NCBI RefSeq assembly: GCF_900109365.1
Contig: NZ_FNZR01000003.1
Location: 62,001-126,000 of the forward strand
Direction of reading: 5' to 3'
Length of the DNA stretch: 64,000 nucleotides
Origin: Parapedobacter koreensis
GTDB taxonomy: Bacteria; Bacteroidota; Bacteroidia; Sphingobacteriales; Sphingobacteriaceae
The position numbers and the translations under genes are program-made. The notes below the pieces were generated by a model. That model did no database searches. It was given only the letters and a program-made list of their open reading frames with translations, and had not been told where the DNA came from. Shown here piece by piece: positions 9,891 through 62,323 of the stretch (position 1 is its first letter; every line of letters begins with the position of its first letter).

Positions 9891-9946
9891 TCGGTTATCG
9901 GCAGTCGGCGTTAGGCTTCCGACTTCAGACCCGGAACTTCCGACTA
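9891..9946. repeat. Heptanucleotide-phased degenerate repeat tract
   Basis: Eight consecutive 7-mers between the S10 gene and the panB stop codon, for example TCGGTTA, TCGGCAG and TCGGCGT, later CCGACTT and CCGACTA. The period is exactly 7 bp with no slippage, although the units are only partly conserved. Confidence 0.7.
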
Positions 9947-9950
9947 AAAA

Positions 9951-10766
9951 TCAATACTGCTCGTTTTCATTCGGGAACGTGGCGGATTTCACATCGTGGA
10001 TATACCGTCCTACGGCTTCGCCGATTTCTTCATACAGGTTGAGGTATTGGCGCAGGAACTTGGGCTTAAACCCTTTATTGAGGCCCAGCATGTCGTGTAC
10101 GACCAGCACCTGGCCATCGCAGCCAGCGCCAGCACCGATGCCGATGGTGGGGATATCGAGGCTGGCAGTCACTTCGGCAGCTAATTGCGCAGGGATTTTT
10201 TCGAGCACGATGCCAAAGCAGCCTGCATCTTGCAGGTATTTTGCGTCCGTTTTCAGTTTGTTGGCTTCGGCTTCTTCCTTAGCCCTGACCGTGTAGGTAC
10301 CGAATTTGTATATGGATTGCGGTGTGAGGCCGAGGTGGCCCATCACGGGGATACCCGCATTCACGATACGCTTGACGGTATCCTGGATTTCAATGCCGCC
10401 TTCCACTTTCAGCGCATGCGCTCCAGTCTCCTTCATTACGCGCACAGCTGCTTTTAGTGCATCACTGCTATCACCTTGGTAGGTACCGAAAGGCAGATCG
10501 ACCACAACCAGCGCGTGTTTGGCTGCGCGGACTACGGCAGCGGCATGAAGCATCATTTCTTCCAGGGTAATGGGTACAGTGGTCTCATAACCCGCCATGA
10601 CATTGGCGGCGGAGTCGCCCACCAGGATGATATCGATGCCGGCATCATCCAATATCCGGGCCATCGAATAGTCGTAGCCGGTGAGCATGGCTATTTTCTC
10701 GCCGCTGGCTTTCATTTGACGGATGGTATGCGTGGTGATGCGTTTGATTTCTTTGTTTACTGACAT
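9951..10766 (-). CDS. panB: 3-methyl-2-oxobutanoate hydroxymethyltransferase
   Basis: The 271-residue enzyme transfers a hydroxymethyl group from methylene-tetrahydrofolate to ketoisovalerate, giving ketopantoate for pantothenate and CoA synthesis. Visible family segments are LTGYDYSMARILDDAG, VGDS and the DLPFGTYQ motif, plus the GIGAGAGCDGQVLVVHD block in the C-terminal half. The other pan genes are not in the window. A perfect -7 box (TACATTTG) ends only 4 nt before the ATG, which suggests a leaderless or nearly leaderless mRNA. Confidence 0.96.
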   Translation of the reverse strand: MSVNKEIKRITTHTIRQMKASGEKIAMLTGYDYSMARILDDAGIDIILVGDSAANVMAGYETTVPITLEEMMLHAAAVVRAAKHALVVVDLPFGTYQGDSSDALKAAVRVMKETGAHALKVEGGIEIQDTVKRIVNAGIPVMGHLGLTPQSIYKFGTYTVRAKEEAEANKLKTDAKYLQDAGCFGIVLEKIPAQLAAEVTASLDIPTIGIGAGAGCDGQVLVVHDMLGLNKGFKPKFLRQYLNLYEEIGEAVGRYIHDVKSATFPNENEQY

Positions 10767-10770
10767 AACG

Positions 10771-10778
10771 CAAATGTA
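10771..10778 (-). promoter_or_regulatory. -7 promoter element abutting panB ATG
   Basis: TACATTTG on the minus strand, 4 nt before the panB start codon at 10766. Transcription would start at or next to the ATG. Confidence 0.5.
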
Positions 10779-10790
10779 AGAAAATTTAAG

Positions 10791-10825
10791 AAGCTGATAG
10801 CTTGTAACGCTTATGGATAGTTAAA
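10791..10825. repeat. Short heptad-like tract upstream of panB
   Basis: About five 7-mers (AAGCTGA, TAGCTTG, TAACGCT and two weaker ones) in the panB/usp spacer. It is weaker than the other tracts. Confidence 0.4.
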
Positions 10826-10881
10826 CACACCAAGTTATTTTTTAAGGTGACGATTATCATTAATTGCATGGTAATTTGAGG

Positions 10882-10889
10882 TATCTTTG
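10882..10889 (+). promoter_or_regulatory. -7 promoter element of the universal stress protein gene
   Basis: TATCTTTG, an exact TAnnTTTG match, 36 bp before the ATG at 10926. No clear -33 TTTG at the expected spacing. Confidence 0.55.
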
Positions 10890-10925
10890 TAACACAAAGC
10901 TTACCACTTATTTGTATTAAATGAT

Positions 10926-11750
10926 ATGAAAACGATACTAGTTCCTACAGATTTTTCAGAAAACGCGTATGTTGCCGCAGAATATGCTTGCGCGTTGGCT
11001 AATGCTTCCAATCAAAAAGTGCAATTGTTACATGTGTATATCGCCTTATATTCAGGTTATGGGGAAGAAGGCAACAGCGTAAAGCAAATCAGGTGGGCCG
11101 AGACGGAATCTGCGGAAGCCATGAAGAATTTGGTGGAAAACTTAAGCCGGCAATTTCCGGAGGTGGATATCGAGGGTGAATGTATCAAGGGATTCATGAT
11201 TGAAGTGGTGATTGAAAAGCTTAAAAAAGGAGAAAACTCCCTGGTGGTGATGGGCACCAAAGGCGTGACTAACATTGCCGAAAGTATTTTGGGAAGCACG
11301 ACTTATGAAGTGCTTAAGAAATCGCCAGTGCCCGTATTGGTGGTGCCCATCGATACACCGGATTTTTCGTTCCAGCGTGTGGGGTTTTTCACGGCTTACG
11401 ACGATCAGGAATTGGACGCATTACTGGTATTCCAGCAGGCACTTAATCTCAGGCCGCATTTATCCATGTTACATTTTTACAAAGCGGGAGAGCAGGCTCC
11501 GGAAAAAGAGCTGGAGCGTTGGCAACGTAAGGTGGAAGAAGCTTATCCGGATTGGGGTGTTTCCTGCAAGGCCATGCCGGTGGAAAAGGTCGATATCAAT
11601 GCGGTGACGCAAGAAGCGAAAGCCGATCGGCTGGATTTGCTGGTATTTGCTAGACCCCATAAATCGTTTTTCCAGAAAATTTTTGTACCCAGCCTTACCA
11701 AGGCGGTAGTGAATTACCCATCGATCCCTTCGCTTTTTATCAAAGTCTAA
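10926..11750 (+). CDS. Tandem universal stress protein (UspA superfamily)
   Basis: The 274-residue protein has two Usp domains. The first (about 1-145) retains the nucleotide-binding signature G-x2-G-x9-G-S/T (GTKGVTNIAESILGSTT) and ends with PVPVLVVP. The second is degenerate and lacks that loop. Tandem Usp proteins of this type are typical of Bacteroidota and are usually linked to starvation or envelope stress; the molecular role is generally unknown. It has its own promoter and is followed after 18 bp by a convergent ROK pseudogene. Confidence 0.9.
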   Translation: MKTILVPTDFSENAYVAAEYACALANASNQKVQLLHVYIALYSGYGEEGNSVKQIRWAETESAEAMKNLVENLSRQFPEVDIEGECIKGFMIEVVIEKLKKGENSLVVMGTKGVTNIAESILGSTTYEVLKKSPVPVLVVPIDTPDFSFQRVGFFTAYDDQELDALLVFQQALNLRPHLSMLHFYKAGEQAPEKELERWQRKVEEAYPDWGVSCKAMPVEKVDINAVTQEAKADRLDLLVFARPHKSFFQKIFVPSLTKAVVNYPSIPSLFIKV

Positions 11751-11768
11751 ACAATAGTGTACAGCTGA

Positions 11769-12060
11769 TTAGGTGTTGAGCGCCAGTAGGCGATCGCACA
11801 CAAGCAGGCAGGCGCCGACGATGCCTGCCTGTTCGCCCAATTGGGATATGCTCAATTGGGTGTCATTGTTGACCAGGCTGAGGGAATATTTGTTGAGGGC
11901 ATTTTTTATGGGCAGCTTGATGTAGTCGCCCGTGGCGGCTAAACTCCCGCCAAGGATAATTAATTCCGGGTTGAACAGGCGGACGATGGTCTGCCCCGAG
12001 GCTTCCGTTTCCAAGCAGCCCTTTTACCGCAATGGCACAGAATCTCGTTGTTGCATAATG
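11769..12060 (-). pseudogene. ROK-family gene remnant (C-terminal part, frameshifted)
   Basis: Only the last third of a ROK (repressor/ORF/kinase) protein remains. The Cys-rich zinc motif is readable as C-H-C-G-K, then a frame break, then C-L-E-T-E-A-S-G: a run of CCC at 12019-12021 appears to be one base short of the four needed to keep frame. The tail with FNPELIILGGSL and EQAGIVGACL is intact to the TAA at 11769. The N-terminal kinase half, which should lie at higher coordinates, is absent and is replaced by remnants of the divergent MFS gene. It probably once encoded a sugar kinase or repressor. Confidence 0.8.
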
Positions 12061-12843
12061 CGTTCAGCGATTCTTCCGTGTTATTCAAATGGTAAGGGAT
12101 TCCCCCTGATCCGGGTGTTTCAAACATCAACTTCATCGTTGCTATTGGGCATACTCAGCTTTTTCCTGCCCGATACACCGCCTAATCGGCAGGCGTCACC
12201 GGGACTTTCTGCAACACTTGGGTTTGATGCGTTGTTTCTCTTTAAGCGCCGTTCATTCGTCGTCTTCTTTTTGGCATCCATAGCGGTATGTATTCCGTTG
12301 TCTTTTTACTACAATTTCACGAATCCGTTTCTGAACGATGTGGGTATGGAGCATGCTGCGGGAAAAATGACGTTGGGGCAGTTTTCAGAATTTGCTTTCA
12401 TGTTGCTTATCCCATTCGCTTTCCGTAGGCTGGGCGTAAAAGCGATGATTGCCATCGGGGTGCTGGCTTGGGTGGTGCGGTACGTGCTATTTGCCTATGG
12501 CAATGTTGCCGATGGGGCATGGATGCTTTACCTGGGTATCCTTTTGCATGGGCTATGCTATGATTTCTTTTTCGTGACGGGCCAGATCTATACCGATCGG
12601 CAAGCGGGCATGGCGGTAAAAAATGCTGCCCAGGGATTGATTACTTTTGCCACATATGGTGTGGGGATGTTCATCGGCTCGTATGCCTCAGGTGTGCTGA
12701 CCGCAGTTTTTGCGACCCCCGGTGAAGCCATGCAATATGACTGGCGGGGGGTATGGCTGGTCCCGGCAGGGATCTCGATACTGATTTTTATACTATTTTT
12801 GTTGATCTTTAAAGAAGATAGCGAGCAAACAAACGATAAATAA
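12060..12843 (+). pseudogene. MFS nucleoside:H+ symporter-like gene remnant (5' truncated)
   Basis: The frame is open from 12060 to the TAA at 12841 and matches the second half of Bacteroidota nucleoside-permease-like MFS transporters (FYYNFTNPFLNDVG, FAFRRLGVKAM, YDFFFVTGQIYTD, GMFIGSYASG). The N-terminal half is missing. In addition, a segment normally expected after FPLIRVF (GTIGWIxAG and about 40 residues) is absent, so FPLIRVF is joined directly to a segment matching SLLLGxxSFxLPDTPP. A frame break occurs around 12060-12090. There is no plausible start codon with a transporter N-terminus. Confidence 0.8.
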
Positions 12844-12846
12844 CAG

Positions 12847-13932
12847 ATGGAAACACAAAAAAAACCGATACGGGTACTGGTTGTTGGCTGCGGCAATATG
12901 GGAGCTTCCCATGCCAGCGCCTATCATGAAATGGATGGATTTGAGATTTGCGGACTGGTATCCACCGGTGATAGCAAAGTCAAATTGAATAACCTCCTTG
13001 GCGGTGGATATCCCCTGTACAATGATTTTGAGCAAGCCCTGGCTACTGCCCGTCCGGATGCAGTATGTATTTCCACCTACCCCGATACGCATGAGCAGTA
13101 TGCCATCAAATCGCTGGAAGCCGATTGCCACGTGTTTATCGAGAAGCCGCTTGCCGACAGTGTGGAAGGCGCTGAGCGGGTCGCCGCCGTCGCCGCCAAA
13201 ACGGGAAAGAAGCTGGTCATTGGCTATATTCTGCGGTACCACCCTTCCTGGCAGCGGTTTATTGAACTCAGCGGCGAGCTCGGCAAGCCGCTGGTGATGC
13301 GGATGAACCTGAACCAGCAGAGCCACGGCGTGATGTGGGATGTGCACCGCAACCTGATGAAAAGCCTCAGCCCGATTGTAGACTGCGGTGTGCATTACAT
13401 CGACGTGATGTGCCAGATGACGGGCAGCAAACCTGTCCAGGTGAATGCCATCGGTGCCAGGCTTACGGATGATATCCCAGCAACTAACTACAATTATGGC
13501 CAATTGCAGATCCGTTTTGAAGACGGTTCGGTGGGATGGTATGAAGCAGGCTGGGGGCCTATGATGAGCGAGACGGCATTCTTTGTGAAAGATGTGATTG
13601 GTCCGAAAGGCGCCGTATCCATTGTGGCCAAGGAAGCTGGGGCAAGCGGCAAGTCGGATTCCGTGGCGGCGCATACCAAAACGGAGTCGCTGCGTTTCCA
13701 CTATGCTGATATCGATGAGGCCAATAATTTTACCCGTCAGGATCGCTGGATTGATCTGGCGGATGAGCCAGACCACCAGGAATTGTGCAACCGCGAACAG
13801 CGCTTCTTTCTAAAAGCCATCCGGGAGAACGTGGATTTGACCGAAGCGACCGAACATGCCATCAGTAGCCTTCGTGTGGCATTTGCCTGTGACGAATCGG
13901 TGAAGACCGGTGAAGTGGTACGGTTGGCGTAA
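12847..13932 (+). CDS. Gfo/Idh/MocA family oxidoreductase
   Basis: The 361-residue protein has an N-terminal Rossmann fold with GCGNMGASH (14-22) and the EKP motif (99-101), followed by the alpha/beta substrate domain with the HYIDV segment. It is an NAD(P)-dependent dehydrogenase, probably acting on a sugar or inositol derivative. It begins 3 bp after the MFS remnant, so it was part of the same operon and may have lost its promoter or be expressed from an internal one. No signal peptide is seen, unlike many Bacteroidota paralogues. Confidence 0.88.
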   Translation: METQKKPIRVLVVGCGNMGASHASAYHEMDGFEICGLVSTGDSKVKLNNLLGGGYPLYNDFEQALATARPDAVCISTYPDTHEQYAIKSLEADCHVFIEKPLADSVEGAERVAAVAAKTGKKLVIGYILRYHPSWQRFIELSGELGKPLVMRMNLNQQSHGVMWDVHRNLMKSLSPIVDCGVHYIDVMCQMTGSKPVQVNAIGARLTDDIPATNYNYGQLQIRFEDGSVGWYEAGWGPMMSETAFFVKDVIGPKGAVSIVAKEAGASGKSDSVAAHTKTESLRFHYADIDEANNFTRQDRWIDLADEPDHQELCNREQRFFLKAIRENVDLTEATEHAISSLRVAFACDESVKTGEVVRLA

Positions 13933-13971
13933 TTAGCCATCCGTTTGCCTACGTGATGGATATCCCGTATA

Positions 13972-13988
13972 TTTACGCGATTCGTAAA
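13972..13988. promoter_or_regulatory. Inverted repeat upstream of prpB
   Basis: TTTACG and CGTAAA separated by 5 bp, ending 7 bp before the prpB ATG and next to a TATATTTA -7-like box. The position fits an operator for the prp operon, but the arms are short. Confidence 0.35.
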
Positions 13989-13995
13989 AATAACC

Positions 13996-14883
13996 ATGAT
14001 AAACGGGAATCCATCATCCGCGGGAGCGCGCTGGCAAGCTGCCCTGAAATCCGAACAGCCACTGCAAATCGTAGGGACTATCAATGCTAACCATGCGTTG
14101 CTGGCTACCCAAGCTGGCTTTCGGGCTATTTACCTTTCAGGTGGCGGAGTAGCAGCGGGTTCCCTGGGCGTGCCCGATTTGGGCATTTCGTCTTTGCAGG
14201 ACGTGCTCATCGATGTGGAGCGCATTACCAACGTGTGCGATACCCCGTTATTGGTGGACGTCGATACCGGATTCGGCCCTTCGGCGTTCAACGTAGCCCG
14301 TACCGTGAAGAGCTTAATCAAAGCTGGCGCAGCAGCCTTGCACATGGAAGATCAGGTTGGTGCAAAGCGTTGTGGCCACCGTCCCAATAAGGAGCTGGTG
14401 AGCACCGCCGAAATGGTAGATCGGTTAAAAGCGGCCGTAGATGCCCGTACGGACGACCAATTTGCCATTGGGGCACGTACCGACGCCCTGGCCAATGAGG
14501 GATTGGGGGCAGCACTGGAACGGGCCGTAGCTTATGCCGAGGCGGGTGCCGATTTTATTTTTGCGGAAGCAGTAGCTGAATTGACACAATACCGTGCATT
14601 TGTGGAAGCAACGGGCCTGCCAGTGCTGGCCAACATCACTGAGTTTGGCATGACGCCGTTGTGGACGGTGGCCGAATTGGCTCAGGCGGAGGTTTCCATG
14701 GTATTATACCCACTATCAGCGTTCCGGGCAGCGAATAAGGCGGCCTTGAATGTCTACGCACATGTCCGTAAGGATGGTACACAGCAGCACGTGCTGGATA
14801 CCATGCAGACCCGCGCCGAATTGTATGACAGCATTGGTTATTATGACTTTGAAAAGAAATTGGATGCGTTGTATGGGAAGTAG
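13996..14883 (+). CDS. prpB: 2-methylisocitrate lyase
   Basis: The 295-residue enzyme cleaves 2-methylisocitrate to pyruvate and succinate, the last step of the methylcitrate cycle. It has the isocitrate lyase/PEP mutase barrel with DVDTGFG (88-94, Mg site) and the catalytic loop KRCGH (124-128, Cys126). The length matches PrpB rather than the longer AceA. It is first of three genes, prpB-prpC-prpD, all in one direction with 36-68 bp spacers that contain heptad tracts. No prpR/prpF or prpE is present here. Confidence 0.94.
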
Positions 14884-14945
14884 TTGGGAAGTTCGAAAGT
14901 CAGGAGACCGGAAGTCTAAATGCTAAGTACTTAGTACTAAATACT
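14883..14945. repeat. Heptanucleotide-phased tract, prpB-prpC spacer
   Basis: Nine 7-mers fill the whole spacer from the prpB stop to 5 bp before the prpC ATG, the last ones nearly identical (AAGTACT, TAGTACT, AAATACT). The A/T-rich end also forms a small dyad around AGTACT. Confidence 0.75.
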
Positions 14946-14950
14946 AAATT

Positions 14951-16111
14951 ATGAGCGATAGCAATCAGCAACCAACGTTTAAGCCAAAGAAATCGGTAGC
15001 GCTCTCGGGGATAGCCGCCGGCAACACTGCGCTGTGTACAGTAGGTAGGAGTGGCAATGACCTGCATTACCGGGGATACGATATCCTCGATTTGGCGGAG
15101 GGGGCATCCTTTGAGGAGGTAGCCCATTTGCTTATCCACGGGAAATTGCCGAATAAGGCGCAACTGCATGCTTACCGAGGCAAACTGAAGACCCTTAGGG
15201 GATTGCCGCAGGTGGCTAAAAATGTGCTTGAACAGATCCCTGCTGCTGCACACCCGATGGATGTACTGCGTACGTATACCTCCGTGCTGGGTACGGTTTA
15301 CCCGGAAAAAGATGATCACCATCCGGTGGGCGCGTGCGATATTGCTGACAAACTGCTGGCTTCCTATGCATCGGCTTTGCTGTATTGGTATCATTATGCC
15401 CATCATGGGCGGCGCATCGATGTGGAAACCGATGACGAGACGGTAGGCGCACATTTTCTCCACTTGCTCCACGGCAAGGAACCGTCGGCATCATGGATTA
15501 ATGCCATGGCGATTTCGCTGAACTTATATGCCGAGCATGAGTTCAATGCTTCTACATTCACCGGGCGGGTAATCGCCGGCACGGGATCGGATATGTATTC
15601 CTGCATCACGGGAGCCATTGGCGCACTGCGCGGGCCAAAGCATGGCGGAGCCAATGAAGTGGCCTATGAAATCCAAAGCCGCTATGCCAATGCCGATGAG
15701 GCTGCTGCGGACATTAAGCAGCGACTGGAACGCAAGGAGGTCATCATTGGATTTGGCCACCCTGTATATACCGTCTCCGATCCGCGGAATGTGGTCATCA
15801 AAAAAGTAGCCCGGCAACTATCGGATGAATCTGGTGATAGTGCATTATTTACCATTGCCGAACGGCTGGAAACGTTGCTTTGGGAAGAGAAAAAGATGTT
15901 TCCCAACCTGGATTGGTTTTCGGCGGTTTCCTATCACCTGATGGGCGTGCCCACATCTTTCTTTACGCCGTTGTTTGTCATTGCGCGCGTGACGGGATGG
16001 AGCGCCCATGTCATCGAACAGCGGCAAGATGGAAAGATTATCCGGCCAAGTGCAAACTATACAGGTCCGGAGCCGAGGGAATTTGTACTTTTGGAGGATC
16101 GTAACGCTTAA
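14951..16111 (+). CDS. prpC: 2-methylcitrate synthase
   Basis: The 386-residue citrate-synthase-family enzyme condenses propionyl-CoA with oxaloacetate. The catalytic signatures are GPKHGGANE with His231 and GFGHPVYT with His270, and an Asp near residue 317 in the NLDWFS segment. The type II-like short length, the position between prpB and prpD and the absence of the N-terminal hexameric citrate synthase domain favour PrpC over GltA; dual activity is possible. Confidence 0.93.
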
Positions 16112-16145
16112 GTCTTATGACTTTTGACTTTCAACTAACTAAAAA
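16111..16145. repeat. Heptanucleotide-phased tract, prpC-prpD spacer
   Basis: Five 7-mers from the prpC stop to just before the prpD ATG, including two identical TGACTTT units. Confidence 0.7.
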
Positions 16146-16147
16146 AT

Positions 16148-17602: not shown

Positions 17603-17615
17603 ATTCTTATCTTTG
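17584..17615 (+). promoter_or_regulatory. Promoter of the RluA-type gene
   Basis: TTTG (17584-17587) and TATCTTTG (17608-17615) separated by 20 bp, close to the Bacteroidota -33/-7 consensus. The -33 part lies inside the end of prpD, and the ATG follows 25 bp after the -7 box. Confidence 0.65.
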
Positions 17616-17640
17616 CCGCGTAACGTGAAGATACTGGAAT

Positions 17641-18336: not shown

Positions 18337-18358
18337 GAAATATGGCCGAACAATTTTG

Positions 18359-18366: not shown

Positions 18367-18367
18367 T

Positions 18368-37313: not shown

Positions 37314-37356
37314 CACACACCTTTCTCCCGCCTTCCTTCTTCCTTTTTTCTGCCGT

Positions 37357-37439
37357 AATGCGGGCTGGATACGGGCCGTATGCGGTGCGGATCTTACCTT
37401 TTCCCGGATACGCCCCGGATCAGCCCCGCATCGTACACG
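37357..37439. repeat. GC-rich undecamer-phased repeat tract
   Basis: Seven degenerate units phased at 11 bp (one is 17 bp), such as GATACGGGCCG, GATACGCCCCG and GATCAGCCCCG, in an otherwise AT-rich 412-bp spacer. The second unit with its neighbour also forms the 6-1-6 dyad ATACGG-G-CCGTAT. No gene is present. Confidence 0.65.
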
Positions 37440-37525
37440 GGAGATGGCAGGAAAAGGGAGGGGATTGACAATAAGTTAATCCCTATTTAATTACAGGATA
37501 ATACACCCGACCTACTTTTGCCATA

Positions 37526-43543: not shown

Positions 43544-43624
43544 ATGAAAAAATTAATAAGTTGGTTGACAGGTTTGAAAAGTCGTATTTTTTTTCGTTTT
43601 TTGGCCTCAGCGTTCAGGCATTGA
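43544..43624 (+). CDS. Possible 26-residue basic hydrophobic peptide
   Basis: An ATG at 43544 opens a short frame encoding a peptide that starts MKKLISWLTGLKSR and ends FLASAFRH before a TGA at 43622. It lies alone in the 229-bp spacer before the glycosyltransferase gene, just upstream of the heptad tract. It could be a leader or small membrane peptide, but chance is not excluded. Confidence 0.2.
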   Translation: MKKLISWLTGLKSRIFFRFLASAFRH

Positions 43625-43659
43625 AGAGTCGGAAATTTCACGTCTGATGTCTATCGTCT
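43625..43659. repeat. Heptanucleotide-phased tract before the glycosyltransferase gene
   Basis: Five 7-mers ending 4 bp before the ATG at 43664, the last three being CACGTCT, GATGTCT and ATCGTCT. Confidence 0.7.
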
Positions 43660-43663
43660 TAAT

Positions 43664-44665
43664 ATGAAAATCCTCTACGCAGTACAAGGTACAGGCAACG
43701 GCCATCTGAGCCGGGCTATGGATGTAGTACCTTGTTTACAACGGCGTGCCACGGTTGATGTGTTAGTCAGCGGCATCCAAGCTGACCTGGCATTGCCTTT
43801 TCCCGTAAAATACCGGATGCATGGGCTCAGCTTTATCTTTGGCAAAAAAGGGGGGGTGGATTTGTGGAAGACATTCATGAGCTCCACGGTACGCAGACTT
43901 ATCCACGAAGTCAATACGTTGCCGATAGAGCAGTACGATTTGATTATCAATGATTTTGAGCCGATATCGGCTTGGGCATGCAATATCCGAGATAAGGAAT
44001 GTATCGGTCTCAGCCATCAAGCTGCAGCAATGGATGCCCAGGCTCCCAAACCGAAGGATCAGGACATGCTGGGAAAATTTATCATGAAGAACTATGCACC
44101 CGCCACGCTTAATTATGGGTTTCACTTCAAACGATACAGCCCACGGATATTTACTCCCGTCATCCGCCAGCAAGTGCGCCAATTGGAGGTGGCCGACAAA
44201 GGGCATTACACCGTATACCTTCCAGCATATGACGACGCCCGGTTGCTGAGGCATTTGATGCGTTTTCCAGATATCCAATGGCAGGTGTTTTCCAAGCACA
44301 ATAAGATCCCGTTCGAGATGCGTAATGTAAGCGTCCAACCCATTGCGAATGAAGCCTTCATCCAAAGCATGGCCTCGGCATCGGGTGTGTTGTGCGGTGC
44401 GGGGTTTGAAACACCGGCTGAGGCAATGTTTCTCCAAAAGAAATTGCTGGTCATCCCGATGAAAAACCAATATGAACAGCACCTCAATGCGGCGGCGCTT
44501 GAAGAGATGGGGGTCTCCGTCATTAAGAGCCTGAAACCCAAAAATGACCCCGCTATTGAGGCATGGTTGAGTAATAAGCACGTTGTTGCCGTAGATTATC
44601 CGGATTGTACACAAGCAATTATTGACGACTTGCTGGAAGCGCACATTTCCAAAGCATTGGCCTAG
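43664..44665 (+). CDS. Glycosyltransferase-family protein (MurG/GT28-like)
   Basis: The 333-residue protein has a GT-B fold start MKILYAVQGTGNGHLSRAM with the Gly-rich GTGNGH loop, and a C-terminal donor-site region CGAGFETPAEAMFLQKKLLVIPMKNQYEQHLNA that recalls MurG/UGT-type enzymes. It resembles proteins annotated as glycosyl transferase family in Bacteroidota. It lies 4 bp upstream of a GH1 glucosidase gene, so the two probably form an operon handling one glycoside. The acceptor is unknown. Confidence 0.8.
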   Translation: MKILYAVQGTGNGHLSRAMDVVPCLQRRATVDVLVSGIQADLALPFPVKYRMHGLSFIFGKKGGVDLWKTFMSSTVRRLIHEVNTLPIEQYDLIINDFEPISAWACNIRDKECIGLSHQAAAMDAQAPKPKDQDMLGKFIMKNYAPATLNYGFHFKRYSPRIFTPVIRQQVRQLEVADKGHYTVYLPAYDDARLLRHLMRFPDIQWQVFSKHNKIPFEMRNVSVQPIANEAFIQSMASASGVLCGAGFETPAEAMFLQKKLLVIPMKNQYEQHLNAAALEEMGVSVIKSLKPKNDPAIEAWLSNKHVVAVDYPDCTQAIIDDLLEAHISKALA

Positions 44666-50799: not shown

Positions 50800-51648
50800 A
50801 TGAAAAAGCACCTGAAATTGGCCATGCTTGCGGTATGCGTGGCTTTGGCAATGGGAGTAACTGCCGTGCAGGCGCAGCAACCAGAAAAGAAATTGGGTTG
50901 GTACCTGTCTGCGCAAACGTATACGTTCAACCGATTTACCTTTTTTGAGGCCGTCGATAAAACGCTGGGTGCCGGATTGAATTCGGTGGAAGCGTTCAAC
51001 GGGCAGGAGATAGGGGGCGGAATCGAAGGGAAAATGGATTATAAGATGGATGCCGAAAAGCGTAAGGCGATTTTGAAAGCATTAAAGAAGAAAAAGGTAA
51101 AGCTATGTGCCTTTGGTGTGGTGAATGGTACTACCGATGAGGAATGGCGGCAATTGTTTGAATTTGCAAAGGCCATGGACATCAAGGTCATCAATTCTGA
51201 GCCGAATGCAGAATTCCTGCCCTTGATTGGCCAGCTGGCCAACCAATATAAGATTAAAGTAGGTATACATAATCATCCGAACCCTACCAAGTATTGGGAT
51301 CCGGCTATTGTATTGGATGCAATAGCAAAGGCAAATAGCGAGTATGTAGGCGCTTGCGCAGATATTGGGCACTGGGTGCGGTCGGGCTTGGATCCGATAG
51401 AAAGCCTGAAGAAATACGAAGGGCATTTGGTGAGTTTGCATTTTAAGGATCTGGAAGAAAAGTCGCCGAAGACCCATGACGTGCCTTGGGGTACTGGCGT
51501 ATGTAACGTGGAGGGTGTGATCGCTGAATTGAAACGCCAGGGCTTTAAGGGCAATATTTCCGCGGAATACGAATATAACTGGGACAATAATGCAGGCGAC
51601 GTAGCTCAGAGTGTCGCTAACTTCAGGGCGCTATTGGCCGGAAAGTAG
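50800..51648 (+). CDS. Sugar phosphate isomerase/epimerase-like exported protein
   Basis: The 282-residue AP endonuclease 2/xylose isomerase-like TIM barrel has a signal peptide (about 1-26, ending VQAQQ). Metal-ligand segments are visible as NSVEAFNG, NSEPN, IHNHPNP, CADIGHW and SLHFKDL. Periplasmic members of this group occur with Gfo/Idh dehydrogenases and DUF1080 proteins in 3-keto-sugar metabolism. None is adjacent here, though a Gfo/Idh gene lies at 12847. Confidence 0.87.
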   Translation: MKKHLKLAMLAVCVALAMGVTAVQAQQPEKKLGWYLSAQTYTFNRFTFFEAVDKTLGAGLNSVEAFNGQEIGGGIEGKMDYKMDAEKRKAILKALKKKKVKLCAFGVVNGTTDEEWRQLFEFAKAMDIKVINSEPNAEFLPLIGQLANQYKIKVGIHNHPNPTKYWDPAIVLDAIAKANSEYVGACADIGHWVRSGLDPIESLKKYEGHLVSLHFKDLEEKSPKTHDVPWGTGVCNVEGVIAELKRQGFKGNISAEYEYNWDNNAGDVAQSVANFRALLAGK

Positions 51649-51649
51649 G

Positions 51650-51705
51650 AGGGCTTAGGTTTTGAAGCTATAGGCTTACAGCCTACGGCCTATAGCTTTC
51701 AACCG
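51650..51705. repeat. Heptanucleotide-phased tract crossing the kdsB stop codon
   Basis: Eight 7-mers, such as TAGGCTT, ACAGCCT, ACGGCCT and ATAGCTT, run from the spacer into the last ten codons of kdsB (stop at 51676-51678). Confidence 0.75.
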
Positions 51706-52428
51706 CTCCAGGTCTTCGGGCGTATCCACGGCGATGGTTTCTGCGGTAGTTTCTGCTGTTTGGATAAGGTAGCCGTTTTCTATCCATCGGAGTTGTTCAA
51801 GTGCTTCAGCACGCTCCAGCGAGGATATGGGAAGCTTGGTCAATTCGGCCAAGGTGGCAGCGCGGTAGCCGTAGATGCCAATATGTTTATAATAGGGATG
51901 CAGGTGAAGCCAATCCTGGGAGGGGGCATTCCGTTGGAATGGAATAGTTTGCCTGCTGAAATAAATGGCGCGCCCGTTATGATTGACCACCACTTTGGGG
52001 ATTCCTGTATTAAACAGTTCTTCTACCGTCGAGATTCGTTTTATCAATGTCGCGATTTGGACATTGGTGTTTTCAAAACAGCTCACCAATAAGTCAATCT
52101 GAGCCGGGTCTATATAAGGTTCATCGCCCTGAATATTGATGGCTACCTCAAAATCGGAATAAACAGCAAGCACCTCTGCACAGCGATCCGTGCCGCTTTG
52201 ATGGGTGTCTGCGGTCATCAGCACATTCCCGCCGAAGGAATCAACATGGGAAAAGATGCGATCATCGTCGGTGGCCACGACCACCTGATCAAGGGAGTGA
52301 CTTTGTATGGCCTGCTCGTATACCCGTTGGATCATGCTTTTGCCTGCAATATCAACGAGGGGCTTGCCCGGAAAACGGCTTGATGCGTAACGAGCGGGGA
52401 TGATGCCGATGGTTTTTGTTTGAGACAT
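51676..52428 (-). CDS. kdsB: 3-deoxy-manno-octulosonate cytidylyltransferase
   Basis: The 250-residue enzyme activates Kdo as CMP-Kdo for lipopolysaccharide inner core synthesis. The N-terminal nucleotide-binding signature IIPARYASSRFPGKPLVDIAGKSM and the INIQGDEPYI metal/CTP site are intact. The last residues (KAIGRRL) are encoded by a heptad repeat, and the start codon lies in another heptad tract. It is third in a minus-strand run after trpS and the nucleoside kinase gene. Confidence 0.95.
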   Translation of the reverse strand: MSQTKTIGIIPARYASSRFPGKPLVDIAGKSMIQRVYEQAIQSHSLDQVVVATDDDRIFSHVDSFGGNVLMTADTHQSGTDRCAEVLAVYSDFEVAINIQGDEPYIDPAQIDLLVSCFENTNVQIATLIKRISTVEELFNTGIPKVVVNHNGRAIYFSRQTIPFQRNAPSQDWLHLHPYYKHIGIYGYRAATLAELTKLPISSLERAEALEQLRWIENGYLIQTAETTAETIAVDTPEDLERLKAIGRRL

Positions 52429-52491
52429 TAGACACTAGATGTTAGACATTAGATATTGCAACTGTGTAAATCCGATAGCTGACAACCAGCT
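52422..52491. repeat. Heptanucleotide-phased tract between kdsB and the nucleoside kinase gene
   Basis: Ten 7-mers, the first six strongly alike (GAGACAT, TAGACAC, TAGATGT, TAGACAT, TAGATAT). The first unit contains the kdsB start codon and the last reaches the stop codon of the kinase gene. Confidence 0.8.
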
Positions 52492-54102: not shown

Positions 54103-54140
54103 ATTGGCCGCGAAAATAAGGAATTCTCCGCTATTATCCT

Positions 54141-54148
54141 TATTTTTG
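54141..54148 (+). promoter_or_regulatory. -7 promoter element of the desaturase gene
   Basis: TATTTTTG, an exact consensus match, 28 bp before the desaturase ATG in the 74-bp divergent spacer with trpS. Confidence 0.5.
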
Positions 54149-54176
54149 TCGATGTAAGGACTTAGACGGTTAAAAT

Positions 54177-56075: not shown

Positions 56076-56085
56076 GTTCTTGTTG

Positions 56086-58605
56086 TTATACGTCTACTGT
56101 ACTGGGATTGCCTTGGATCTGCAGTTGCTGCATCAGCTCATCAAGCTGCATGAGTGCGCGTTGCAATTCGGTTTCTGGGGGTAGGTCACCGTTGCGGGCG
56201 TCGATTTCCATTTTGCGCAGCTGGAAAGCAATTTTGTCGGCACCGATTTGTGCCGTGCGCCCTGCGACACGATGTAGGAGTAATTCCACATTTTCAAGGT
56301 CATGCGCGTGGTAATAATCGGTAAGGGTAGCGATGTCTGCAGTAGTGTCACGGGTATAAAGGGCGATGATGTTGTGCGCCTGCACTTCATCATCCGGTGC
56401 AAATTGGCGGACGCCTGTCAGTTGATTTGCAGCTACCTGGGCTTCCACAGGTGGAATACCCAGCAAATGGAGCAAATCGGCCTCCTTGAAGGGCTTAAGC
56501 AATAACCCATCAAACCCTTGGGCAAGGATTTGCTCCTGTTCTTCCGGCAATACCTGTGCGGTACATGCATATACATTTACACCGGCGGTGTTAATCTTTT
56601 TATGCAGTTCCTTATTAAGCTGGGTGCCATCCATTTCGGGCATCCGGATATCCATCAACACGGTCTTTACTTCGGGATCCCAAGGCGTCGTCAACACGTC
56701 CCGTGGAGACATGAAACAGCGGTAAGGAATACGGTACTTATCGAGAATATTTTGGCACAAGCCCAAGATCAACCTGTCATCATCGATAATCCATACGCTA
56801 CCTTCGAATGGTTTCAGGGTTGCTTCTACCCTGTGCATCGGGATTTCGGCTATGGTGTTGACCGCTGTTTTCAGGGGTAAGTTGACTTTAAAAACCGATC
56901 CGAATCCCTTTTTGCTTTCCACGCGGATACTACCGCCCATGCTTTCACAAATGGTTTTTACGATGCTTAATCCTAATCCACTGCCAAAATGGACGCCTGA
57001 GTTGGCATTTTCAGATTGCTCAAAGTCATTGAATATGCGATCAAGATCTTCCGCAGGTATGCCCTTGCCAGTATCTTTTACAACGATATTGAATTCGGTC
57101 TTTTCGTTATAGACCACTGTGCTTACATTGAGTGTCACTTTGCCATGATCGGTAAATTTGATGGCATTGCTAAGTAAATTGAATAAAATCTGTTTGATGC
57201 GGAATGCGTCGCCCAATACCTGCCCCGAACCTAAGATGCGCGTGTTGAACTCCAGCGCCAGCCCCTTGCCCTGTGCCTGTGCTTTCATGACGGAGACGAC
57301 GTTATTTACCAAGCCTTCTACTGCAAAGAGCTTTTCGCTGAGCACGATTTTACCGGATGTGATGCGGCTGTAATCCAAAATTTCATTTACAATTTGCAGC
57401 AGGTGCTCCGAAGATTGGTAGATGGCGTCAATCTTGGTGTCCTCCGCGTGCTGCCCCTGTTTCAATTGCTCGGAATAGCCGATGATGGACTGTAAGGGGG
57501 TTCGCAGTTCGTGGCTCATGTTAGCCAGGAAACGCTGTTTCGCAGCGGCGTGGTATTCGGCCTCTTCTTTCGCCGCTTCCAAGGCCACACGATAGGCATT
57601 GTTCCGGCGGATATCGGCCAAAATTAAATAGACCATGACGGCTGTGATGATAAAAAATGCGAGGATAATGGCGCTGATGCGCCATACACTGTCGCTTACT
57701 ACTGCACGCGCCTGCTGGTTGTCTACTTCCATCTGTTGCATCGCTTCGTTTTCCACGGAATGCAGGATGCTCAGCATGTTGCTGATGAGTGTGTTGGAGA
57801 CAATGGTTAAATCCTTTTCCCGGCTGACGAATTGTTCGCGTTGCTGTTGCTGAAGCATTTGGAAACGCTGCACTGCGCTATCAATGCGGGCCAATGTGCT
57901 GTCGTGCTGCACCGCCCTGATGGTGTCTACGATAGTTTCCATTTCCTCCTCAACCATCCGTCGCTCTTCAACGACAGGCAGCGGCGGCTGCTCTTGGCGT
58001 TTTCGGCCGAAAAGGCGGCCAAAAAAACCACGGTCATCACTGTCAATAAGGACGGGTATTGCGCTGGTGTCGCCAGCTATGGTTGTCGTGCGGCGCTTCC
58101 GTTCGGTGGTCACAATGGTACTATCAGAACTGGGCTCGTAGATAACGTCGCTTAATGATTGCAGTTGCTCTAAAAATTCGCGGCTATCCACTACTTTCTC
58201 GCGCACGCTCACATATCCATTAAACAACCTGTCCCGCTGCCGGAGCAGGGATTTTATGGAGTCTATCCGGGATTGTTGAACATCACTGCCTGCATATAAT
58301 TGTTTCAATGAATCAAGGGAAGCAACGATTGCGGCCGATTCTTTGGAAAAGCTTCTATAAGATGCATTCCCTCCGAATGCTTGCGCCCGTTGCATTTGAT
58401 CCAGCCGCATGATATCCCGTGAAATGCCGCTGACCATTTCCAGCTTGGGATCTGGTGTCGTGATGCTTTCCACGGTGCCCATCATCTCCGTGAATGCTAC
58501 ACGGCTGATTACCCATGCCAATGCCAATGCTACTGCACCGGTGACAAACACGAAGATAACTTTGCGCCGTACACTCCCTGTGGATTGTATGTCTGGTGTG
58601 GGCAT
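56086..58605 (-). CDS. Hybrid sensor histidine kinase with receiver and Hpt domains
   Basis: The 839-residue phosphorelay protein has TM1 at about 15-37, a 270-residue predicted periplasmic region rich in coiled coil, TM2 at about 310-330, HisKA with NMSHELRTP (His365), HATPase with DTGKGI and GSGLGLSIVK, a receiver domain with IDDD and Asp652, and a C-terminal Hpt domain with His778 in LHRVAGRTAQIGAD. All four phosphorelay residues are present except an output domain, so a separate response regulator must exist. The basic patch GRLFGRKRQ at about 197-205 is odd for a periplasmic region. Confidence 0.92.
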   Translation of the reverse strand: MPTPDIQSTGSVRRKVIFVFVTGAVALALAWVISRVAFTEMMGTVESITTPDPKLEMVSGISRDIMRLDQMQRAQAFGGNASYRSFSKESAAIVASLDSLKQLYAGSDVQQSRIDSIKSLLRQRDRLFNGYVSVREKVVDSREFLEQLQSLSDVIYEPSSDSTIVTTERKRRTTTIAGDTSAIPVLIDSDDRGFFGRLFGRKRQEQPPLPVVEERRMVEEEMETIVDTIRAVQHDSTLARIDSAVQRFQMLQQQQREQFVSREKDLTIVSNTLISNMLSILHSVENEAMQQMEVDNQQARAVVSDSVWRISAIILAFFIITAVMVYLILADIRRNNAYRVALEAAKEEAEYHAAAKQRFLANMSHELRTPLQSIIGYSEQLKQGQHAEDTKIDAIYQSSEHLLQIVNEILDYSRITSGKIVLSEKLFAVEGLVNNVVSVMKAQAQGKGLALEFNTRILGSGQVLGDAFRIKQILFNLLSNAIKFTDHGKVTLNVSTVVYNEKTEFNIVVKDTGKGIPAEDLDRIFNDFEQSENANSGVHFGSGLGLSIVKTICESMGGSIRVESKKGFGSVFKVNLPLKTAVNTIAEIPMHRVEATLKPFEGSVWIIDDDRLILGLCQNILDKYRIPYRCFMSPRDVLTTPWDPEVKTVLMDIRMPEMDGTQLNKELHKKINTAGVNVYACTAQVLPEEQEQILAQGFDGLLLKPFKEADLLHLLGIPPVEAQVAANQLTGVRQFAPDDEVQAHNIIALYTRDTTADIATLTDYYHAHDLENVELLLHRVAGRTAQIGADKIAFQLRKMEIDARNGDLPPETELQRALMQLDELMQQLQIQGNPSTVDV

Positions 58606-58657
58606 GGATTAATTCCCCTAACTTTATGTAAAGTTACCAAAAATTGTGCTAATATAG

Positions 58658-58749
58658 AAGTCAACTATCCGCAACCAACTTTCAGCTATTGACTTTTACG
58701 AAAATGATGTAACGAATCTGATAGCCGAAAGCTGATAACCCATCGCCGA
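58658..58749. repeat. Heptanucleotide-phased tract between clpB and the hybrid kinase gene
   Basis: About thirteen 7-mers, strongest at both ends (CTATCCG, CTTTCAG, CTATTGA; then ATAGCCG, AAAGCTG, ATAACCC), ending exactly at the clpB stop codon. Confidence 0.7.
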
Positions 58750-61341
58750 TTACTGGTTTAAGAACACAAACTTGTGGTCAAACATGTCCAGCTTGATATT
58801 GCTCTCCTTGTCAATATTGTCGGCCAGAATTTCCTTAGATAATTCGTTGAGGATGTGTTTCTGGATGACGCGCTTGAGTGGACGGGCACCGTATTGTGGA
58901 TCATACCCCAGTTGGGCCAACCAATCGAGCGCTTCGTCGCTCGCCGTAAGATGAATACCTATCTCAGCCAGCTGCTGCTGCATCTTGCTGAATTGTATCT
59001 GCACAATCTTGCCCAGTTCTTCCCGGCTGAGCGGTGCAAACATGATGACTTCATCAATGCGGTTGAGGAATTCCGGTCGGATGGTTTTCTGAAGCAGCTC
59101 AAATACTTCATGCTGTGTTTTTGCGATGATTTCCTCCCTATTGTTTTCATCCAGGTTGCTGAAGTTTTCCTGGATAAGGTGCGAACCGATGTTGGAGGTC
59201 ATGATGATAATGGTGTTTTTAAAGTTGACCACTCGCCCCTTATTGTCAGTGAGGTGGCCATCATCCAATACTTGCAAGAGAATATTGAACACATCGGGAT
59301 GTGCCTTTTCGATCTCATCCAGTAATATTACAGCATAGGGCCTGCGGCGAACCGCCTCGGTCAATTGTCCACCTTCATCATACCCAACATACCCGGGAGG
59401 CGCGCCGATGAGGCGCGATACCGAATGGCGTTCTTGGTATTCACTCATGTCTATACGGACCATCGATTGTTCATCATTGAAAAGAAATTCGGCTAAGGCC
59501 TTTGCCAGCTCGGTCTTGCCCACGCCCGTGGTGCCAAGGAAAATAAAGGATCCAATGGGACGGCGTTTGTCGCTAAGTCCGGCACGTGAGCGCCTGATGG
59601 CATCCGAAATGGCCTCGATGGCCTCTTCCTGACCGGCGACGCGCTTGTGTAATTCTTCTTCAAGATGTAGCAATTTGTCGCGCTCGCTTTGCACCATTCT
59701 CGTCACCGGTATGCCAGTCCACCGGGATACGACACCGGCGATGTCCTCCGCAGTCACTTCTTCCTTCAGCATACGGCTGTTGCTTTGCTTTTCGGTAAGT
59801 TCTTTTTTGAGTACTTCTACCTTGTCCTGAGATTCCTTGATGCGCCCATAACGGATTTCAGCGACCTTGCCATAATCACCGGCCCGTTCTGCTTGGTCTG
59901 CTTCTATCTTATAAGTTTCAATCTGCTCCAGTTCATGGTTGATGTTATCTACCAACGTCTTTTCGCTTTGCCATGCTGCACGCAAGGAGTCCCGATCCGC
60001 GCTTAGGTTGGCAATTTCTTCGCTCAATTCATCGACCTTCTTGGAGTCTTTCTCCCGTTTGATGGCTTCACGTTCGATTTCCAGTTGCATAATGCGGCGT
60101 TCAATTTCATCAACAGCTTCGGGCACCGAATCCATCTCAAGGCGTAGTTTCGAGGCCGCTTCGTCCATGAGGTCAATGGCCTTGTCGGGAAGGAAGCGAT
60201 CCGCAATGTACCGTTGGGACAATTCTACGGCTGCAATGATGGCCTCATCGAGGATCCGTACCTTATGGTGGGTTTCATAACGTTCTTTAAGCCCGCGCAG
60301 GATGGAGATTGCATCTTGGGTATCCGGCTCTTCCACCATTACCTTTTGGAAACGGCGTTCCAATGCTTTGTCTTTCTCAAAGTATTTTTGGTATTCATTG
60401 AGGGTTGTCGCACCGATGGCACGCAGCTCACCGCGCGCGAGTGCCGGTTTAAGGATATTGGCGGCGTCCATCGCGCCCTCGCCGCCGCCGGCTCCTACCA
60501 GCGTGTGGATTTCATCAATGAAGAGGATGATCTCCCCGTCGCTTTGGGTGACTTCCTTCACTACGGCTTTGAGCCGCTCCTCAAATTCCCCCTTGTATTT
60601 GGCCCCCGCAATCAGTGCACCCATATCCAATGAAAAGACCGTTTTCGTCTTTAAATTTTCGGGTACGTCGCCCTTGATAATGCGGTGCGCGATGCCTTCA
60701 GCAATGGCCGTCTTTCCCACACCCGGTTCTCCCACCAGGATGGGATTGTTTTTTGTACGGCGCGAGAGGATCTGGATGACCCGGCGGATTTCCTCGTCAC
60801 GGCCGATTACCGGATCCAGTTTGCCGGATTCCGCAAACTCGTTGAGGTTACGGGCATATTTATTCAATGCATTGTAAGTAGCTTCGGCGTTTTGGTCGGT
60901 CACGCGGGCACTGCCCCGCAGGTCACCGATTGCCCTTTTCAGATCTTTCTCTGTCACACCCTGATCTTTGAGCAATGAAGCGGTTTTGTCACCTGCGTTG
61001 AGGATGCCCAATAGGATATGTTCAATGGATACAAATTCATCCTTGAATTCCTTCAGGTAAGACTGCGCTTTCTGTAACGCTGTATTGGCCGACGAAGATA
61101 AGTAAATACTGCTTCCGCTCACCTTGGGGAAAGTGCCGATTTGTTTATCCAGCTCATCCTCCACATGCTTTACATTGACGTTAAGCTTTTTGAGTAGGTG
61201 ACTGACTACATTCTCGTCTACCAACAGCAATGCCTTAAGCAAGTGTGCGGTCTCAATGGCTTGTTGCTGGTTGCCGATGGCGATTTCGGAAGCCTTCTGG
61301 ATGGATTCCTGCGCCTTAATCGTATAGTTGTTAAAATTCAT
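58750..61341 (-). CDS. clpB: ATP-dependent chaperone ClpB
   Basis: The 863-residue AAA+ disaggregase has an N-terminal Clp_N domain, NBD1 with Walker A GEPGVGKT, a middle coiled coil (about 400-520), NBD2 with GTTGVGKT, and a C-terminal D2-small domain. It works with DnaK to resolubilise aggregated proteins. I set the start at 61341 (MNFNNYTIKAQESIQKA), the conserved beginning; an upstream ATG adds 11 residues. No CIRCE or other heat-shock operator was recognised in the 158-bp upstream spacer. Confidence 0.96.
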   Translation of the reverse strand: MNFNNYTIKAQESIQKASEIAIGNQQQAIETAHLLKALLLVDENVVSHLLKKLNVNVKHVEDELDKQIGTFPKVSGSSIYLSSSANTALQKAQSYLKEFKDEFVSIEHILLGILNAGDKTASLLKDQGVTEKDLKRAIGDLRGSARVTDQNAEATYNALNKYARNLNEFAESGKLDPVIGRDEEIRRVIQILSRRTKNNPILVGEPGVGKTAIAEGIAHRIIKGDVPENLKTKTVFSLDMGALIAGAKYKGEFEERLKAVVKEVTQSDGEIILFIDEIHTLVGAGGGEGAMDAANILKPALARGELRAIGATTLNEYQKYFEKDKALERRFQKVMVEEPDTQDAISILRGLKERYETHHKVRILDEAIIAAVELSQRYIADRFLPDKAIDLMDEAASKLRLEMDSVPEAVDEIERRIMQLEIEREAIKREKDSKKVDELSEEIANLSADRDSLRAAWQSEKTLVDNINHELEQIETYKIEADQAERAGDYGKVAEIRYGRIKESQDKVEVLKKELTEKQSNSRMLKEEVTAEDIAGVVSRWTGIPVTRMVQSERDKLLHLEEELHKRVAGQEEAIEAISDAIRRSRAGLSDKRRPIGSFIFLGTTGVGKTELAKALAEFLFNDEQSMVRIDMSEYQERHSVSRLIGAPPGYVGYDEGGQLTEAVRRRPYAVILLDEIEKAHPDVFNILLQVLDDGHLTDNKGRVVNFKNTIIIMTSNIGSHLIQENFSNLDENNREEIIAKTQHEVFELLQKTIRPEFLNRIDEVIMFAPLSREELGKIVQIQFSKMQQQLAEIGIHLTASDEALDWLAQLGYDPQYGARPLKRVIQKHILNELSKEILADNIDKESNIKLDMFDHKFVFLNQ

Positions 61342-61499
61342 TGTCTTAATTTTATGAATGTTTAGGCAAAACAAGTACCATGGGAAATTTGATTTTAGAA
61401 TCGGAAATTTTGTCGCATTTGATTTGGATTGTACTGAATAATTGACTGGTCATTAATGGGTTATACTGAAAAAATAGCAGGTGAGATATAGCTGGTGGA

Positions 61500-62210
61500 T
61501 CAAAAATTCGGTTTGAGTAAGTACTTGTCATAAAACCTGAAGATGTGTTCCGCAGCTTCTTCTGCGGTGTCCACAAGCCGGTAAAGGTTGAGATCCTCCG
61601 GACTAATATTGCCTTCCTTGAGCATAGTGCCCTTCACCCACTCGAAAAGGCCCCCGTAGTATGCCTTTCCGACCAATACGATGGGAAAGCGTGCGATTTT
61701 TCCGGTTTGGATGAGTGTAATGGCTTCAAACAATTCATCCATCGTGCCGAACCCCCCGGGAAGGACAATAAAGCCCTGTGAATATTTCATGAACATGACT
61801 TTACGCACGAAGAAATAGTTGAATTGCAAAAGTTTATCACGGTCGATATAGGCATTGTGGAATTGTTCAAACGGCAACTCAATATTGATGCCTACGGACT
61901 TGCCCCCTGCTTCATAAGCCCCTTTGTTGGCTGCCTCCATAATGCCAGGCCCGCCGCCGGAAACCACGCCGTATCCACGTTCGGTAAGTAATCGTGCGAT
62001 GTCTTCGGCAAGTTTATAATAGGTATGGTCTTGTGGTGTTCGGGCTGAGCCAAACATCGATACGCAAGGGCCTATCTTAGCAAGCTTTTCAAATCCGTCC
62101 ACAAACTCTGCCATGATTTTGAAAATTTGCCAAGAGTCCTTCACCTTAATTTCCTGCCAGGTCTTATTTTCAAATGCCCGCATGATTTTATCTTCTCTCG
62201 TCCTTGCCAT
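61500..62210 (-). CDS. LOG family protein (putative nucleotide 5'-monophosphate nucleosidase)
   Basis: The 236-residue Rossmann-like protein has the LOG hallmarks GGGPGIMEAANKGAYEAGG (PGGxGT-type nucleotide site 1) and LPGGFGTMDELFEA. Family members release the base from nucleotide monophosphates such as cytokinin ribotides or hydrolyse AMP. The N-terminal extension (MARTREDKIMRAFENKTWQEIK) is typical of the long bacterial TIGR00730 form. No clear promoter was found upstream. Confidence 0.9.
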   Translation of the reverse strand: MARTREDKIMRAFENKTWQEIKVKDSWQIFKIMAEFVDGFEKLAKIGPCVSMFGSARTPQDHTYYKLAEDIARLLTERGYGVVSGGGPGIMEAANKGAYEAGGKSVGINIELPFEQFHNAYIDRDKLLQFNYFFVRKVMFMKYSQGFIVLPGGFGTMDELFEAITLIQTGKIARFPIVLVGKAYYGGLFEWVKGTMLKEGNISPEDLNLYRLVDTAEEAAEHIFRFYDKYLLKPNF

Positions 62211-62288
62211 AGGTGTCTTTGTGTTTTTCGCTAAAATACTAATTTTTGACAGGTTCTATTACACTTATCCATTTGGATGCCGGTGCAC

Positions 62289-62323
62289 ACGGTTTATGAC
62301 TTACGACTTTCGTACTAAAAAAG
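62289..62323. repeat. Heptanucleotide-phased tract upstream of recR
   Basis: Five 7-mers (ACGGTTT, ATGACTT, ACGACTT, TCGTACT and a weaker one) ending exactly at the recR -7 box. Confidence 0.65.

Follow-up and report, generated by a model that had tools for sequence, protein, structure and literature searches.

The 64,000-nucleotide stretch of Parapedobacter koreensis DNA analysed here (the window, bases 62001-126000 of its contig) contains eight spacers at gene borders in which related 7-nt units follow one another. A protein encoded in the window has relatives in, among others, Parapedobacter tibetensis (80%), P. lycopersici (79%) and Sphingobacterium sp. JB170 (70%). These tracts and one small open reading frame beside them are as follows.

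9881..9946, minus strand: heptad tract between a Peptidase_S10 gene (8314-9786, minus) and a panB-like Pantoate_transf gene (9951-10766, minus), both by Pfam; 27/49 matches at lag 7 over 9891-9946, p 0.0005
14884..14950, plus strand: prpB-prpC stop-to-start spacer (Pfam PEP_mutase and Citrate_synt), filled with heptads; 33/56 matches, lag-7 score 17.3, p 0.001
16112..16147, plus strand: prpC-prpD spacer (neighbours Citrate_synt and MmgE_PrpD), with ATGACTT TTGACTT TCAACTA; 18/28 matches, lag-7 p 0.002
43544..43624, plus strand: small ORF of 26 aa, 5' of a glycosyltransferase gene, its stop codon adjoining the next tract; translated from both the P. koreensis sequence and that of congener G004
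43625..43663, plus strand: CACGTCT GATGTCT ATCGTCT, from the small ORF to the Glyco_trans_1_3 gene (43664-44665); 14/28 matches, p 0.0055
51650..51705, no strand assigned: heptads over the convergent junction of genes 50800-51648 (plus) and 51676-52428 (minus); 25/49 matches, p 0.0005
52421..52457, minus strand: GTCTAAT-family tract running into the start codon of a cytidylyltransferase gene (51676-52428, minus); score 12.8, with 32/63 matches in the spacer at 52422-52491
58658..58749, minus strand: weak heptad tract in two parts, flanked by a ClpB-like gene (58750-61374, minus) and a histidine kinase gene (56086-58605, minus), both by Pfam; 33/85 matches, p 0.0045
62289..62323, plus strand: short heptad tract in a divergent spacer, 5' of a recR-like gene (62336-62956, plus; Pfam RecR domains); 14/28 matches, p 0.0075

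Heptadic spacers in the window

Lag 7 was the top-scoring lag among lags 4-13 in all eight spacers, which had been named as heptadic in a preliminary description of the window, and all eight stood above their own shuffles (2000 dinucleotide shuffles per spacer; p, uncorrected like all p-values here, was 0.0005-0.0075 by matches and 0.0005-0.009 by local score), confirming that observation; these p-values are post hoc, as the spacers had been picked by eye. When 36 window spacers (4,430 bp) were tested without selection, lag 7 reached a z of 4.8 and lag 14 a z of 3.7, followed by lags 15 (z 2.9) and 24 (z 2.3). The eight tracts matched at 39-64% at lag 7 and thus fall short of the near-perfect units of a simple sequence repeat; near-perfect heptad copies were found in congener G008.

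The unselected scan recovered the 9881-9930 portion of the panB-side tract, in which the sense units read AGTCGGA AGTTCCG GGTCTGA AGTCGGA AGCCTAA. The prpB-prpC tract ends in the 3' units TAAGTAC TTAGTAC TAAATAC and matches three loci of G008, while the tract at 52421 (sense AATATCT AATGTCT AACATCT AGTGTCT AATGTCT) matches six loci in G008, one in G005 and one in G006. Several details of the preliminary description had to be revised. In the spacer at 52422-52491 the heptads stopped after roughly 37 nt, and the tract at 58658-58749 exceeded its shuffles but was weak. The period, said never to slip, includes 8-nt steps within 14883-14945 and in one paralogous spacer (read by eye), and the tract at 51650-51705, although such tracts were thought to be confined to gene edges, reaches 30 bp inside a called gene end.

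By called genes, the neighbours of the eight tracts were co-directional in five cases, divergent in two and convergent in one. The tract at 43625, one of the two divergent cases, follows the 26-aa ORF on the same strand, an ORF that is present in G004 as well (23/26 residues identical) and was missed by the gene caller, so that the co-directional tracts become six rather than five. The small ORF is rich in basic and aromatic residues.

Location of lag-7 tracts in the genome

Intergenic DNA was compared with shuffled controls in 1.44 Mb of the 5.55 Mb genome (757 spacers of 20-600 bp, split by neighbour orientation; genes from a simple in-house caller; tract score threshold 8). In keeping with the preliminary description, lag-7 tracts were in excess in short co-directional spacers (29 vs 1.7 in shuffled sequence); there were 15 vs 2.4 in long co-directional spacers and 2 vs 0.0 in convergent spacers, and divergent spacers were near chance (3 vs 1.5). 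At lags 5, 6 and 8-13 the short co-directional class gave 1-7 tracts (highest at lag 5, 7 vs 2.3), and at the multiples of 7 it gave 13 (lag 14) and 11 (lag 21). Base identity in the 348 short co-directional spacers was raised at lag 7 (z 8.9), lag 14 (z 5.9) and lag 21 (z 3.0), and also at lags 3, 4, 8 and 9 (z 5.1, 5.3, 3.7 and 4.6); of the latter, the tract counts in this class cover lags 8 and 9, with 1 tract each. The excess identity dropped in order from lag 7 through 14 and 21 to 28, as is predicted by copying of neighbouring units.

Three loci (L043, L114 and L115) hold an array of paralogs of roughly 800 aa, of which two were scanned and are MacB_PCD/FtsX permeases. With this array removed, tracts were found in 19/334 short co-directional spacers (1.7 expected), 9/201 long co-directional (2.2), 3/125 divergent (2.15) and 2/70 convergent (0.35). 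Counted per base, the short co-directional class then made up 19.6% of the DNA and held 19 of the 33 tracts (p 1.7e-6, in a class whose definition is partly circular, since a spacer can be taken up entirely by its tract), and for all co-directional spacers p was 0.012; counted per spacer, the co-directional preference was not significant (28/535 vs 5/195, p 0.16). Coding DNA was tract-poor, with 13 tracts in 611 kb vs 19 in 84 kb of spacer sequence (15-nt flanks included; 684 kb sample, threshold 8). The tracts therefore share with heptameric simple sequence repeats both a tandem 7-nt unit above chance and an intergenic location.

When all spacers of the 684 kb sample were pooled, the lag-7 excess was small (0.59 points, z 3.3) and was exceeded in z by lags 3, 4, 8, 9, 10, 11, 12, 14, 21 and 22, with lag 11 at the top (9.9). 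The small pooled excess indicates that the signal belongs to a subset of spacers. Likewise, the 316 short spacers in which no tract was detected had a lag-7 z of 2.1, below lags 3, 4, 5, 6, 8 and 9, so that spacers show no general 7-nt phasing. Spacer length modulo 7 showed no clear bias (63-78 of 504 per class), and across gene borders, identity in the heptad register was only weakly raised near stop and start. Divergent spacers, without an excess at lag 7, were above shuffles at lag 14 (5 vs 0.9) and lag 21 (11 vs 1.0), which perhaps reflects promoter spacing.

Lag-11 tracts form a class distinct from the heptads, as they were common in long co-directional spacers (25 vs 2.3) and not in short ones (4 vs 1.7). 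Long degenerate 11-bp arrays of the CTTTACC CTTT type occur in long spacers (L025 13232-13413, L037 8901-9016) and are possibly phased binding sites. The P. koreensis sample also has an intergenic element, about 130 bp long and dispersed over three places (window 37323-37450, L036 2645-2783, L111 4482-4608; about 80% identical), with an internal 11-bp periodicity and the near-palindrome GGATACGGGCCGTATGC.

Shared words and their turnover

An 11-mer was shared in 48 pairs of tracts at different loci (40 intergenic tracts in the sample), vs 4.9 when unit columns were permuted. With the permease array cut to one tract (29 tracts), 20 unlinked pairs remained against a null of 2.3, none of 500 permutations being as high, and random spacer pieces, used as a second null, gave 0.9 pairs. 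Each spacer had been thought to possess its own local unit; unlinked tracts instead share words far above both nulls. The main common word was GTCTAAT. Its triplicate pattern GTCTNNY (GTCTNNYGTCTNNYGTCT) had 45 matches in the P. koreensis genome and 156 in G008, counts that are inflated by overlapping matches, on many contigs of both genomes; it had 4 in congener G002, 1 in G004 and 7 in G006, 12 in G055, which belongs to another genus, and 0-2 in each of the remaining 55 of 61 sampled family genomes. The reversed control had 0 in P. koreensis and G008 and 0-1 elsewhere. Ten GTCT loci in P. koreensis and relatives were read by eye with simple ORFs: six lay where two same-direction genes adjoin or overlap, one (L156) followed the small ORF, two were inside ORFs and one was without a second neighbour.

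Other words had other distributions. The AGTAYT word was wider (16/61 family genomes, 10/25 genera), with its reversed control matching five genomes (G013 3, G015 10, G042 6, G045 3, G061 29). A scrambled word, GCTTNNY, had 0 matches in P. koreensis and G008 and was present in 27/61 family genomes, several times over in some; words thus differ from genus to genus. The TAGCYG triple was absent from P. koreensis and present in 5/61 family genomes.

Three G008 tracts had flanking genes on one strand (nuoH-like/4Fe-4S, queA/ispD and carA-like/enolase); in those beside queA and nuoH, the first unit contains the stop codon (by eye; genes by Pfam). The nuoH-like to 4Fe-4S spacer (L092 1316-1546) holds TGTGATG, ATTAGAC and TAAGTAC families in series, in near-perfect copies. 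The 262 kb sample of G008 was nonetheless tract-poor (short co-directional 0 vs 0.2, long 3 vs 0.4, divergent 1 vs 1.0), and its 156 GTCT matches may be clustered. In 40-80 kb samples, a lag-7 peak was seen in relatives G014 (z 4.5) and G019 (z 5.3), and no clear peak in G001, G003, G012, G013, G018, G022 and G028 (60-80 kb for congeners G001 and G003).

The prpB-prpC-prpD region was matched in 9/9 genus genomes, with flanking proteins about 82-92% identical across the 9 congeners and spacers ranging from 4 to 102 nt. Only 2/15 of the relatives' spacers aligned to those of P. koreensis above shuffles (p 0.05), while 13/15 did not; a lag-7 p of ≤0.05 was reached by 9 of the 17 spacers scored (one 4-nt spacer being omitted), or 7/15 without P. 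koreensis itself. The stop-proximal edge of the prpB-prpC spacer may be old, because GGAAGT opens three of these spacers (by eye). At 43625, a 24-nt heptad core was identical in P. koreensis and G004, and G004 has 36 extra bases beside it. In the FtsX/MacB array, the proteins were 34-67% identical (best 40 pairs listed) and the spacers aligned closely by eye, this greater likeness of the spacers suggesting that they were duplicated or converted. One array spacer (L114_13996) was shorter by exactly 7 bp than two others (L114_11568 and L043_10868). Gap sizes in 46 similar spacer pairs, which are non-independent, gave no clear peak at 7 (6, 6, 5, 6 and 1 gaps for sizes 4-8).

Origin of the tracts and known heptamer repeats

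We interpret the tracts as degenerate heptameric simple sequence repeats that arose by slippage and drift in tolerant spacers, with words spread between loci, a reading to which we give a probability of roughly 0.6. Where two genes run in the same direction, replication slippage in the spacer would add or remove units of 7 nt, a change that would be tolerated, disturbing neither reading frame nor promoter, and point mutation would then drive the units apart; some tracts may have started out by copying the end of the gene next to them. Slippage with drift fits a step of 7 with similarity that decays over distance, and it fits tracts that are scarce in coding DNA, are replaced from one species to the next and do not fold unusually. 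Words common to unlinked loci call for a spreading step beside local slippage. The GTCTAAT, TAAGTAC, GCTATAA and AAGTCGG word types could move by gene duplication and by conversion among paralogous spacers, with ectopic recombination probably a further carrier, and this movement would explain the likeness of tracts between unrelated operons. The origin with the best support is the one put forward in the preliminary description, local tandem duplication and drift at a 7-bp step; that description's interpretation is partly supported overall. The period, the location bias per base, the words common to several loci, the poorly aligning orthologous spacers and the single exact heptad difference between paralogs are observations. 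Slippage as the motor, the presumed neutrality of the changes and the route by which words spread are all inferred, and some results point the other way: the 24-nt core unchanged in two species, the unpeaked gap sizes, the co-directional preference that is not significant per spacer, the divergent excess at lags 14 and 21, the sense stop enrichment given below, and the samples of several congeners without a lag-7 peak.

It is also conceivable, but in our view unlikely, that at stop-to-start junctions the words are bound, on DNA or RNA, by a protein specific to the lineage that acts in translation coupling or mRNA processing, and that selection keeps them. Such a role would account for words common to unlinked loci, for a GTCT word nearly confined to a few genomes and for tracts near stop and start codons, and excerpts of MacGregor 2015 (PMC4679880) argue for translational regulation by TAACTGA in Beggiatoaceae. 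It sits poorly with the 8/17 prp spacers without a lag-7 signal at p 0.05 and with examined neighbour genes that have no evident common function. Nor did the RNA and strand results favour it. Folding of 24 tracts was not unusual (mean z -0.44 vs -0.17 for 100 other spacers, p 0.29), and a search of the window with Rfam at gathering scores found one tRNA only, the tracts matching no RNA family. The two-unit GTCT pattern in co-directional spacers stood at 11 sense to 3 antisense, with 7 of the 11 from one array, and thus at about 5 to 3 after the array was collapsed; 12/27 of its matches fell within called coding DNA, as did 1/16 for the stricter form GTCTRWY. An RNA-level signal, one of the roles first suggested, is weakened by these results. 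Two related candidates were rejected: hairpins from opposed words (e.g. L037 13089-13181), which were seen by eye in a few tracts and gained no support from the fold test, and a strand-specific RNA motif, for which an apparent bias of TGTCTAA (15 to 3 in spacers) shrank once the paralogous array was collapsed.

A selected array of stop codons, in which units with TAA, TAG or TGA close all frames every 21 nt against run-on translation into the next gene, seems to us very improbable. Among 19 tracts outside the array, sense stop triplets numbered 77 vs 62.5 under unit permutation (p 0.016) and antisense ones 65 vs 54.5 (p 0.057), and stop codons in repeated forward TAACTGA are noted in the excerpts of MacGregor (PMC4679880); closed reading frames in the same tracts, however, were not significantly enriched (43 vs 38.4, p 0.11), and any unit length indivisible by 3 would serve, which leaves 7 unexplained. 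The weak stop enrichment leaves room for a functional reading of the tracts. We hold it to be just as improbable that the word families are what is left of a dispersing element, one that places blocks of heptads where genes meet: such an element would suit the spread of GTCT words over many contigs in both P. koreensis and G008, against 0-2 matches in 55/61 family genomes, and the 36-base difference from G004 at 43625, but 41 tracts read by eye had neither fixed ends nor a constant block length. Chance or composition, suggested by the choice of spacers by eye and the small pooled excess, can scarcely explain a lag-specific excess of tracts over dinucleotide shuffles in unselected sequence.

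The slippage-and-drift reading places the tracts beside repeats of other bacteria. The preliminary comparison with the heptameric repeats of cyanobacteria, known as heptanucleotide STRR, was apt. Both are tandem heptanucleotides outside genes, so far as excerpts describe the cyanobacterial ones, and they differ in lineage, in words and in the degeneracy of the present copies. Three heptanucleotides are cited in Calothrix (PMC4692102, in excerpt), and the same excerpts (Rehm 2015) give heptameric G-rich repeats, GGGAATC of Xanthomonas and GGGGA(T/C)T of Nostoc, which resemble the present tracts in being heptameric and intergenic, with heterogeneous units and with length and sequence variation between close relatives, whereas the present words are not G-rich runs. 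TAACTGA heptamer direct repeats are described in Beggiatoaceae, in Cyanobacteria and in five Bacteroidetes, some of the latter having further heptamers alongside, and heptamer assemblages lie between genes in some Bacteroidetes (MacGregor 2015, PMC4679880, in excerpt). The phylum is therefore not wholly undescribed in this respect; for Sphingobacteriaceae, none of the titles or abstract openings among the matches listed, in open papers, described tracts of this kind. As excerpted, the TAACTGA repeats share with ours the 7-nt unit, a mainly intergenic location near start and stop codons, no particular RNA fold and absence from the same spacer in close relatives, and in some Bacteroidetes the mixture with other heptamers. 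Unlike them, the P. koreensis tracts comprise several degenerate word families rather than one exact word, in an orientation that is not clearly fixed, and the TAACTGA pair TAACTGATAACTGA was absent from P. koreensis and four congeners (5/61 family genomes carry it). Among long simple sequence repeats of 5-11 nt, 7 nt was the most abundant unit in most genomes studied, with the length of DNA touching the polymerase as the suggested cause (Mrazek 2007, as cited in excerpts of PMC4679880 and PMC4692102); most of the present tracts would be too degenerate to count as such near-perfect repeats.

Heptamers are thus known from cyanobacteria, Xanthomonas, Beggiatoaceae and a few Bacteroidetes, and in P. 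koreensis a small set of words turns up again and again in gaps between unrelated genes, with differences from one related species to another. A bolder proposal, which we offer tentatively and rate as unlikely, is that Parapedobacter has a spreading lexicon of a few 7-nt words that repeatedly takes over the stop-to-start junctions of unrelated operons and is rewritten between species from an overlapping word list, either as selfish recombination-borne repeats or as a protein-read intercistronic code. The usual view of operon spacers is that they are short and have no features of note; some here are heptadic. Motif searches in Parapedobacter genomes may report words that are mere repeat products. 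With orthologous spacers mostly unalignable though the flanking proteins are >80% identical, these genomes are a manageable system in which to ask why bacterial repeats favour 7 nt, and whether words are spread by recombination or kept by selection.
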